Source: Bacteroidales bacterium
GTDB lineage: Bacteria > Bacteroidota > Bacteroidia > Bacteroidales > Bacteroidaceae
Direction of reading: 5' to 3'
Length of the DNA stretch: 64,000 bases
Assembly: GCA_015060905.1 (NCBI GenBank)
Contig: SUXQ01000003.1
Location: forward strand, 62,001 to 126,000
Shown piece after piece: positions 36,294 through 37,995 of the stretch. Below the pieces are notes generated by a model. It did not search any database, was not told the DNA's origin, and was given only the letters and a program-made list of their open reading frames with translations. A program made the position numbers and the translations under genes. How positions within the stretch are numbered: position 1 is the stretch's first letter; every line of letters begins with the position of its first letter.

Positions 36294-37115
36294 TTATTCT
36301 TTGGGGACTAATTCAAAGAATCCGCTAATTTCTTGCTGGTCAATAGCCTGACGAACATTATAGCGTTTAATTTGATCCTCGTAGCCACGTTTCGATATTT
36401 TAATTTCTATTGTAACGTCACGCGAATTTGCATATGTCAGTCCAAGAATGTTAAAAGATTTTGTCTCTTCGTAAGGTGTAGTTGTCAAATATGTTTCATT
36501 TGTATTTTTAACCTCTGACGGGACACTCGATATTACACGGTAAGAGATACGTGCGCCACGAGGGTCGCTGTCGAAATACCAACGTATGATTGAACGTTCC
36601 AATGCCGTTCCACCGGGATTATCGCGAGTAACCCTTTCATTAACTGCGCCTGCAACAATCGTCGGGTCTTTCTTAATTTCAACAGCTTCTTGTTCGGCAA
36701 TTTTCTTTTTTTCTACAACCTCCTTGCTGTCATAATCTTTAAAATGGAGCCAACATTCTTTTACCGAGGGTTTCATTATTGCACCTGTGGCACAATCGAC
36801 AAGAACACCCGGAACACCTCCAACTAAAATATTTGCCCAAGCAGCATTGTTGAATTTTTTCTTAATCTCGGTTTTTGCTATTCTATTATCATCAGAGACT
36901 GCAACAACCTCGGTACTTTTAAATCCACCTTTTACTTTTTCCGTATGAGGCAAATAAACCTCTTTTTCTTTACCATCGATAGAAAGAAGAACAGGGCCAA
37001 CATCCGATCGCGTATTAAAAGTAACTTTTTTACTACCACCACCCAATATACTTGCGCAGGAAATAAACACAGGCACTATTGCAAGTGCCAAAAGAAAATG
37101 AAAAAGTTTTTTCAT
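36294..37115 (-). CDS. Lipoprotein of unknown function
   Basis: A 273-residue lipoprotein (lipobox FISC, Cys20). After the signal comes CASILGGGSKKVTFNTRS and a beta-rich domain (SDVGPVLLSIDGKEKEVYLP), then a hydrophobic VGGVPGVLVDCATGAIMKP stretch, resembling glycine-zipper-like or membrane-touching lipoproteins often seen in cell-envelope accessory roles. The second half has many charged beta strands. I do not recognise a named family. The start at 37115 was chosen for the signal peptide, and longer frames run into the structured leader. Its 5' leader holds a nested hairpin of about 200 nt and a promoter (37370-37377). Confidence 0.78.
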   Translation of the reverse strand: MKKLFHFLLALAIVPVFISCASILGGGSKKVTFNTRSDVGPVLLSIDGKEKEVYLPHTEKVKGGFKSTEVVAVSDDNRIAKTEIKKKFNNAAWANILVGGVPGVLVDCATGAIMKPSVKECWLHFKDYDSKEVVEKKKIAEQEAVEIKKDPTIVAGAVNERVTRDNPGGTALERSIIRWYFDSDPRGARISYRVISSVPSEVKNTNETYLTTTPYEETKSFNILGLTYANSRDVTIEIKISKRGYEDQIKRYNVRQAIDQQEISGFFELVPKE

Positions 37116-37140
37116 AATAATATTATTTTTAGTTAAACAA

Positions 37141-37364
37141 TGATATTTCATCAACGCCTTGATGGCTCACGTTTAACCAAAAAAAACGCGGGCGTACTTA
37201 TTCACAGAAGGTACGACCAAGCACCTATACGAACATAAGCACACCCGCGCTATACGCGCGGGCATTTATCGTGCTTATTGCATGTTCGTAGTAGTTTATT
37301 TGGTCGTTTTACTGTGAACGCAATAGCCTAAATGCCATCAAAAAAACGTTGCCTTAATTTGCAA
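37141..37364 (-). ncRNA. Candidate structured RNA (large nested hairpin), leader or small RNA
   Basis: At least six complementary segment pairs nest inside one another. In plus coordinates they are 37152-37156/37347-37351, 37159-37166/37334-37341, 37201-37207/37312-37318, 37213-37220/37300-37307, 37228-37242/37271-37290 (with a bulge), and 37244-37250/37256-37262 around a five-base loop. A minus-strand TACCTTTG box at 37370-37377 could start the transcript near 37364. Eight T residues (minus strand) near 37178-37186 could mark a 3' end of a small RNA. Otherwise it is the leader of the lipoprotein gene 26 bases further on. A 6S-like RNA is one possibility, as such RNAs are long imperfect hairpins. 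The folds are read by eye only. Confidence 0.5.
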
Positions 37365-37369
37365 CTCTG

Positions 37370-37377
37370 CAAAGGTA
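37370..37377 (-). promoter_or_regulatory. Putative -7 box (TACCTTTG) ahead of the structured RNA
   Basis: Exact minus-strand TAnnTTTG match located just outside the outermost paired segment. No convincing -33 element. Confidence 0.6.
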
Positions 37378-37453
37378 ATAAAAAATCAACACATAACATC
37401 TAAATATCATTAATAAAAATCAAATAATAAATTTACATATTATTATATACAAC

Positions 37454-37485
37454 AATCCCTTGCAGAATATTTCCTGCAAGGGATT
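37454..37485 (-). terminator. Terminator after the DUF4878-like lipoprotein
   Basis: Perfect 12-bp stem (37454-37465 with 37474-37485). It lies 33 bases downstream of the stop on the minus strand. The T-run beyond is weak. Confidence 0.65.
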
Positions 37486-37518
37486 AAACTTTCACCAACT
37501 TTTTATAAGCCCAATATA

Positions 37519-37965
37519 CTAATCTTTTATTAATGGCTCTCTATGAAAAACTCCATGATCGCCATCGACCTTCCATCGTCCATCGACAGAAACAAGTTTA
37601 ACATCAATCTTCAACATATTACCCAAAGGTCCCCTGCCCTCTAACACCACCAATGCCTTGTCACCGTCGATTTTTTCGGATGCAACCTTATAATCGGGAA
37701 CAAACCCCTCGGTGCGCTCTTTATAATCATCCGACGCAACCGCCATCATAAAATAGTCGCGGAATACATTAAAATCGAGCGAATCGACAAAATAGATATT
37801 CTCGGTAACAGCCTTAACATCGCCGGACGTCAATCCCTTAAACAAAGTAAGAGCAACGACCGAAGGCGCTTCGGAATTACCATCTGCACCATTATTCACA
37901 TTACCACACGAAAAGAAAGAAAAAGCTAACGTCGCAACAAGAATAATATATTTTACACTTTTCAT
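37519..37965 (-). CDS. DUF4878-like lipoprotein
   Basis: A 148-residue lipoprotein (lipobox FFSC, Cys20). The mature part is a small alpha+beta cone-like domain of the lumazine-binding/NTF2 type: LTLFKGLTSGDVKAVTENIYF, then the DYKVASEKIDGDKALVVLEG and DGRWKVDGDHGVF strands. Function in this family is unknown. The ATG at 37965 was taken over 37974 (three codons earlier) because it gives a standard MK start. A TATCTTCG promoter box lies 31 bases upstream. Confidence 0.8.
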   Translation of the reverse strand: MKSVKYIILVATLAFSFFSCGNVNNGADGNSEAPSVVALTLFKGLTSGDVKAVTENIYFVDSLDFNVFRDYFMMAVASDDYKERTEGFVPDYKVASEKIDGDKALVVLEGRGPLGNMLKIDVKLVSVDGRWKVDGDHGVFHREPLIKD

Positions 37966-37995
37966 AATAACCATATTTTAAAAAAAACAACTGCG

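Follow-up and report, generated by a model that had tools for sequence, protein, structure and literature searches.

The minus-strand hairpin between about 37159 and 37351 of the window, by which we mean the whole 64,000-nt stretch of DNA that was analysed, is one copy of a large RNA, uncatalogued to date, that precedes many unrelated genes of the Bacteroidota. We consider it probable that the element is a leader of about 190 nt acting in cis, one that would determine if transcripts begun at the 37370-37377 promoter extend into the lipoprotein gene behind it.

A sequence-only reading of this DNA had described a large nested hairpin and proposed that it be folded. The hairpin is real and beyond chance: the predicted fold of minus strand 37130-37377 has an energy of -93.6 kcal/mol, whereas 200 dinucleotide shuffles gave a mean of -62.06 (sd 4.45; z -7.09), and none of the 200 was as stable. 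The same reading had placed a -7 box just outside the 5′ end of the hairpin, a T8 tract near 37178-37186 and a lipoprotein start codon at 37115. The box was found as TACCTTTG, the tract lies within a base or two of where it had been put, and the position of the start codon agrees (Table 1). We take a -7 box of the TAnnTTTG type to be the consensus of the Bacteroidota primary-sigma promoter. Absent from that reading was a second pairing, of 37187-37201 with 37235-37249, which is complementary at 15 of 15 positions (G-U included). The second of these strands is inside the hairpin, and the helix they form resembles a terminator stem, with the T8 tract immediately after it.

Table 1. Parts of the element and neighboring features in the window, in the order of transcription
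Feature	Position	Strand	Basis or remark
-7 box TACCTTTG, presumed Bacteroidota primary-sigma promoter	37370-37377	-	sequence; same box common upstream of other copies
Small hairpin GUUGC/GCAAC near presumed transcript start	37348-37365	-	sequence; similar ones in relatives by eye
P0 5′ arm UUGAUGGC	37334-37341	-	8/8 pairs with 37159-37166
Strand s0 UAUUGCGU of alternative helix PA	37318-37325	-	8/8 pairs with s1a; z 14.8, 8.9
P1 5′ arm GUUCACAG	37312-37319	-	fold and covariation
P2 5′ arm ACGACCAA	37300-37307	-	covariation in wider family
P3 5′ arm UACGAACA	37283-37290	-	pairing and covariation
Strand s1a AUGCAAUA, which pairs with s0 to form PA	37276-37283	-	
P4 5′ arm AUAAGCAC	37271-37278	-	
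P5 5′ arm (s1) CCCGCGC, apical hairpin	37256-37262	-	
P5 3′ arm GCGCGGG	37244-37250	-	
Strand s2 CGCGGGUGUGCUUAU, with an upstream partner in rod (P5/P4) and an alternative downstream partner, s3 (helix B)	37235-37249	-	
P3 3′ arm UGUUCGUA	37228-37235	-	
P2 3′ arm UUGGUCGU, GGU and ACC on its flanks	37213-37220	-	
P1 3′ arm CUGUGAAU	37200-37207	-	
Strand s3 AUAAGUACGCCCGCG, 3′ half of terminator-like helix B	37187-37201	-	
T8 tract, after helix B	37179-37186	-	sequence
P0 3′ arm GCCAUCAA	37159-37166	-	pairs with 37334-37341
Predicted lipoprotein gene (by eye), 273 aa, behind leader	36294-37115	-	no Pfam match at E 0.001

Conservation and distribution of the rod

When one genome per species was scanned with a motif, 116 stretches were returned; the titles of 99 of them, as read, carried the labels Alistipes, Tidjanibacter, Rikenella or Rikenellaceae. 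Two stretches that are not elements (L042 and L125), five cut at a locus edge and three duplicates were dropped, leaving 106 for alignment A1, which has 108 rows once the window copy and L002 are added. A strict-pattern parse likewise retained 106 rows, the window and L002 included, with 12 loci failing, among them L042 and L125. L042, L125/L014 and L155, the single viral hit of the motif, were rejected as elements for want of a match to the later covariance model R2.

In 48 diverse sequences aligned with MAFFT, 96.9% of cells in rod helices P1 to P5 are paired, compared with 86.9% after shuffling and 31 to 45% when the arms are slid, and the covariation is 0.314 versus 0.124 shuffled. Within that subset P1 has both-side changes at all six pairs and P2 is nearly invariant. 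A covariance model, R1, then brought in divergent copies whose P2 sequence has changed as well, and in the wider family of 79 sequences covariation rose to 0.753 (0.219 shuffled), with both-side changes at 32 of 33 pairs. Model R2 was built from these 79 sequences and then applied to more genomes of the order and the phylum. In 78 sequences outside its training set the covariation is 0.794 (0.193 shuffled) and 30 of 33 pairs have both-side changes, so that the covariation among homologues that the sequence-only reading had called for is present within and beyond the training set. Some blastn match to the training rows exists for 71 of the 78, the best being about 80 to 83% identical; the 78 are thus relatives of the training rows rather than copies, and some may belong to the same families. 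Fitting to the model biases alignments A4 and A6 toward the rod, but fitting by itself would hardly yield their 681 and 737 cells with both-side changes, against 190 after shuffling in either case. We conclude that support for the RNA family and for its rod is very strong.

Smaller features accompany the rod. In the 108 Rikenellaceae-type copies, to which the test of P0 was confined, P0 arms score 14.73 with their own partners and 13.90 (sd 0.16) when permuted. These copies carry ATGGCATTT at P0; attenuation by an upstream ORF was rejected, as the wider family mostly has no ATG there by eye. Hairpin P6, after the U-tract, is paired at 371 of 390 positions versus 363.1 permuted in the 78 of 108 Rikenellaceae-type copies in which both arms were found. 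The internal-loop letters beside P2 (AAAA, GGGU and ACCU) are conserved and, by eye, common across families. Candidate helix PC would be formed by GGU and ACC on either side of the P2 3′ arm; copies with GGC here tend to have GCC, and permutation gave only z 1.6 and 2.7.

The family is widespread. R2 at an E value of ≤0.01 found 11 copies in the window's own genome, and a DNA search found a second own-genome copy at 79% identity (G000:C16), before a related lipoprotein gene. Within the genus, 36 of 38 genomes have R2 matches, up to 16 copies per genome, and plain BLAST of 61 genomes detected clear copies in five more genomes of the genus, where they precede different genes. R1 matched at least 52 of 101 genomes in the family of the Alistipes senegalensis genome G065. 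In the Bacteroidales, R2 (E ≤ 1e-4) matched at least 103 of 247 sampled genomes and at least 83 of 174 genera; in the Bacteroidota (E ≤ 1e-5), at least 40 of 296 sampled genomes, at least 38 of them outside the window's family. Copy numbers are lower bounds, at most 28 (G065 family), 11 (Bacteroidales) and 9 (Bacteroidota) candidates having been scored per genome. The element is therefore conserved well beyond its source strain, in its genus and across the Bacteroidota. The window copy had no match in a plasmid collection. In a phage collection, one unannotated fecal contig matches another copy and also matches R2. Six contigs from viral or phage collections (L341-L345 and L347) match R2. Several copies (G052, G213, G222 and others) are found no more than a few hundred bases from the beginning of a contig, as if they adjoined repeats that break assemblies.

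Position before genes and an alternative fold

Most copies of the element lie between a promoter box and a start codon. Outside the training set, a TAnnTTTG box occurs within 110 nt upstream of 57 of 78 copies versus 4 of 75 control stretches, and an ORF starts within 200 nt downstream of 66 of 76 copies versus 21 of 74 in the control direction, the downstream gene being taken as the first ATG ORF, some picks of which are doubtful. For 30 of the 66 near-ORF copies the ORF starts at 44 to 60 nt, and only 2 of the 66 have a further TAnnTTTG between element and ATG. Also outside the training set, 21 of 78 copies have no box in the tested stretch and 10 of 76 have no near ORF; the box in the tested stretch or the near ORF is missing from 19 of the 78, plus some others. 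For several copies outside the Bacteroidales, the distance to the next ORF is 139 to 437 nt. In each of seven early copies that were aligned, the element follows a TAnnTTTG box and precedes an ATG (an eighth row, L014, is not a copy). Thus, the location between promoter and start codon that is characteristic of an attenuator was found for the window copy and for most non-training copies. One locus, L223, holds tandem copies at 1557-1716 and 2121-2277, separated by about 400 nt and each followed by a small ORF of its own.

The same parts could instead belong to a small RNA of about 190 nt that acts in trans and has its 3′ end at the U-tract, in which case only read-through would reach the downstream gene. 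Such an RNA would account for the element's own promoter box and terminator-like end, the several paralogous copies per genome and the non-Bacteroidales copies that have no nearby gene start. We think it unlikely, as the excess of ORFs close behind the element and the near lack of a second box before the ATG both argue against it, as does the homology of same-type leaders, which runs past the U-tract to near the ATG.

The helix before the U-tract is part of a second, conserved set of pairings. Apical strand s2 is complementary both to s1, its P5 partner, and to s3, which follows P1 directly before the U-tract. Helix B (s2 with s3) is paired in 98.2% of cells, versus 97.2% shuffled and 32 to 66% slid; only two of its six pairs have both-side changes, a number that 93 of 500 shuffles reach, and the covariation of helix B on its own is modest. 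Arm permutation favors the native partners: own arms pair at 726 of 742 positions in 106 of 108 copies, permuted arms at 720.6 (sd 1.45, p 0.0022), and z is 12.6 for the Rikenellaceae-type copies and 5.9 for those outside training. For helix PA (s0 with s1a) the corresponding values are 14.8 and 8.9, and three control strand pairs put through the same permutation gave -0.3, 0.3 and 0.9. At least 5 T's occur within 10 nt after s3 in 64 of the 65 copies in which s3 was located, out of 78 outside the training set (it was not located in 13). Because PA and B use strands of the rod, the rod and the PA-plus-B fold are mutually exclusive, so there are two mutually exclusive conserved structures, one of which ends in a U-tract. 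We conclude that the alternative terminator fold is well supported.

The rod is the more stable of the two. With the transcript start assumed at 37364, it is the minimum-energy fold of the window copy at -67.5 kcal/mol, and forcing the 15 pairs of helix B gives -59.8. Across the 59 of 78 copies computed, forcing helix B costs 0.3 to 27 kcal/mol (median 13.5), some cost being expected by construction. The size of this cost disfavors a simple equilibrium switch, and the terminator would have to win kinetically or with help.

A passive 5′ structure, one that stabilizes the mRNA or insulates it from upstream sequence and does no switching, would fit the very stable rod, the small hairpin near the 5′ end and the unrelated nature of the downstream genes. 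It would leave unexplained both the retention of a second, incompatible helix next to the U-tract and the P2-side loop letters common across families by eye, and we regard it as quite improbable. For the attenuating leader that we favor, we propose two folds, as the pairings suggest. In the first, the rod of nested helices P1 to P5 would hold s2 inside, no terminator would form and polymerase would read on, such that the rod is the putative ON state. In the second, s0 would pair with s1a and s2 with s3, and helix B followed by the T8 tract would act as an intrinsic terminator. Regulation of termination would presumably act on the choice between them, and the conserved loop letters beside P2 are the likely site at which a ligand or protein tips the balance. 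In the window, the U-tract together with GGTTAAAC (37171-37186) is also complementary to GTTTAACTAAAAATAA (37123-37138) before the start codon, over 16 nt at 88%, and a GTTTAAC ahead of the ATG recurs by eye in Rikenellaceae-type copies; a further switch at the level of translation is therefore possible.

Downstream genes and copying of the promoter with its leader

The genes behind the element are diverse. From 173 elements taken, 10 of which had no ORF, 158 distinct downstream proteins were kept and 139 were scanned against Pfam. Few of the 139 had a match; 63 Pfam families were represented, the commonest in five proteins, and the scan indicated no common protein family. Nor did the Pfam scan and protein clustering indicate a common pathway among the target genes. 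Domains that recur are lipocalin-like, BspA-type leucine-rich repeat, BACON, PEGA and outer-membrane domains. The set also includes type I restriction, Mrr and DNA methylase proteins. Four copies in the window's own genome precede BspA-type leucine-rich repeat proteins; a longer version of the element with an expanded apical arm was noted before BspA-type genes on own-genome contigs C2, C19, C18 and C27 (L284, L285, L286 and L289). Behind three non-Bacteroidales copies, at a distance of about 230 nt, are TonB-dependent receptors that, like SusC, have plug and CarbopepD_reg_2 domains. One copy (L319) precedes an MmeI-type restriction-modification gene, and restriction-modification or endonuclease-like genes were noted, by eye or by weak match, behind L083, L212, L228, L233, L243 and L272. 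Copies in such positions suggest a link to defense genes. By a crude N-terminal signal test, 109 of the 158 downstream proteins were positive, versus 282 of the 719 ORFs in the Rikenellaceae-type loci and 16 of the 55 in the window; in a second set, 53 of 79 downstream proteins were positive.

The 158 proteins form 96 clusters, 78 of them singletons, and one leader type stands before as many as nine gene clusters. Same-type leaders have median pairwise identities of 84 to 92%. Of the four groups, three have a median start of this homology at -145 to -164 relative to the core and the fourth at -101; with the -7 box at about -140, the homology starts near the promoter in those three. It ends, again by medians, 8 to 36 nt before the ATG. 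Homology bordered by promoter and ATG in front of unrelated genes indicates that promoter and leader were copied together, and selection alone could have sharpened the borders. We conclude that in Rikenellaceae-type genomes the promoter and leader are a portable cassette, often before genes for secreted proteins or lipoproteins and sometimes before restriction-modification genes.

Dispersed copies, one leader type before up to nine gene clusters and a homologous block bounded near promoter and ATG would also be expected of a nonautonomous, MITE-like mobile element that carries a promoter by chance. We consider that origin very unlikely, as compensatory evolution over many families and placement before genes need selection for RNA function. 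A degraded inverted-repeat transposon was likewise rejected as the sole explanation, since the arms covary across many families, yet the cassette has been copied to many places.

A broader reading is that the family is a phylum-wide RNA sensor, in which a single ligand or protein would act at the P2-side loops and which has been copied as a promoter-leader cassette before hundreds of unrelated genes. We hold this only tentatively. If true, the Bacteroidota have a portable RNA-controlled regulon over surface, secreted and restriction-modification genes, and whole promoter-leader units would be seen to pass from gene to gene. A structured leader in so many sampled Bacteroidales genomes, with up to 16 copies each and no Rfam match in the scanned copies, raises a testable question: what signal is common to many unrelated, largely surface-protein genes?

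Relation to known RNAs

No Rfam family was found at the element. The Rfam covariance-model search that the sequence-only reading had suggested gave, at gathering score, one match in the whole window, a tRNA elsewhere; only three tRNAs in 18 Rikenellaceae-type and related loci; no match in 20 Bacteroidales loci; and, for Rfam 15, no family over any of the copies scanned. That reading had left open a 6S-like RNA or a regulatory leader, and only the latter is supported: a promoter box upstream, a gene start downstream, conserved alternative pairings and a U-tract all fit a leader. 6S RNA binds RNA polymerase through a promoter-mimicking bubble. The element is similar in length to Bacteroidales-1 (RF01693), which we take to be 6S-like and which is likewise found in Bacteroidales, and it shares the long hairpin shape of a 6S RNA, yet this identity is extremely improbable, as no 6S family matches 36900-37600 up to an E value of 10, the genome has its Bacteroidales-1 match at a separate locus (G000:C28:79483-79658), and the element has up to 16 copies per genome, positioned before genes.

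Attenuating leaders that choose between terminator and antiterminator include riboswitches, RAT/BglG elements and ANTAR antiterminators. The element resembles them in being promoter proximal, in its mutually exclusive helices and in its predicted intrinsic terminator before a gene; it differs in its one long rod with internal loops, its unrelated target genes and the lack of a known ligand or protein. It thus appears to work like a transcription attenuator. Flavo-1 is an Rfam family, and unlike it, the 11 non-Bacteroidales loci of the leader family gave no Rfam match at an E value of ≤1.

No earlier description of the RNA was found in the literature searched, and core strings of the element matched only papers with unrelated titles; supplementary RNA lists were outside that scope, so a prior listing is possible. 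A human-microbiome survey reported 3161 candidate RNAs (PMC8040213), and the portion of its main text consulted, supplements aside, describes no candidate like this leader RNA. FopS of Bacteroides thetaiotaomicron is reported to comprise paralogous, trans-acting sRNAs of about 65 to 70 nt (PMC11697453). The element resembles them in being multicopy, in having canonical promoters and in its link to surface functions; it is set apart, by description rather than by sequence, as a leader of about 190 nt that stands before genes. A Flavobacterium study described 64 structured 5′ regions as well as Flavo-1 hits (PMC9723704), and the element is like these in being a conserved structured RNA in Bacteroidota leaders.

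The FopS and GibS sRNAs are marked by an R1 seed sequence in common. GibS (RF04182) had no match over the element in a permissive scan of 36900-37600 and gave a subthreshold match of 20.8 bits at 37449-37553, outside it. A perfect 12-bp inverted repeat, AATCCCTTGCAG/CTGCAAGGGATT with an 8-nt spacer, lies at 37454-37485 between two minus-strand genes and is possibly the terminator of the upstream gene at 37519-37974.
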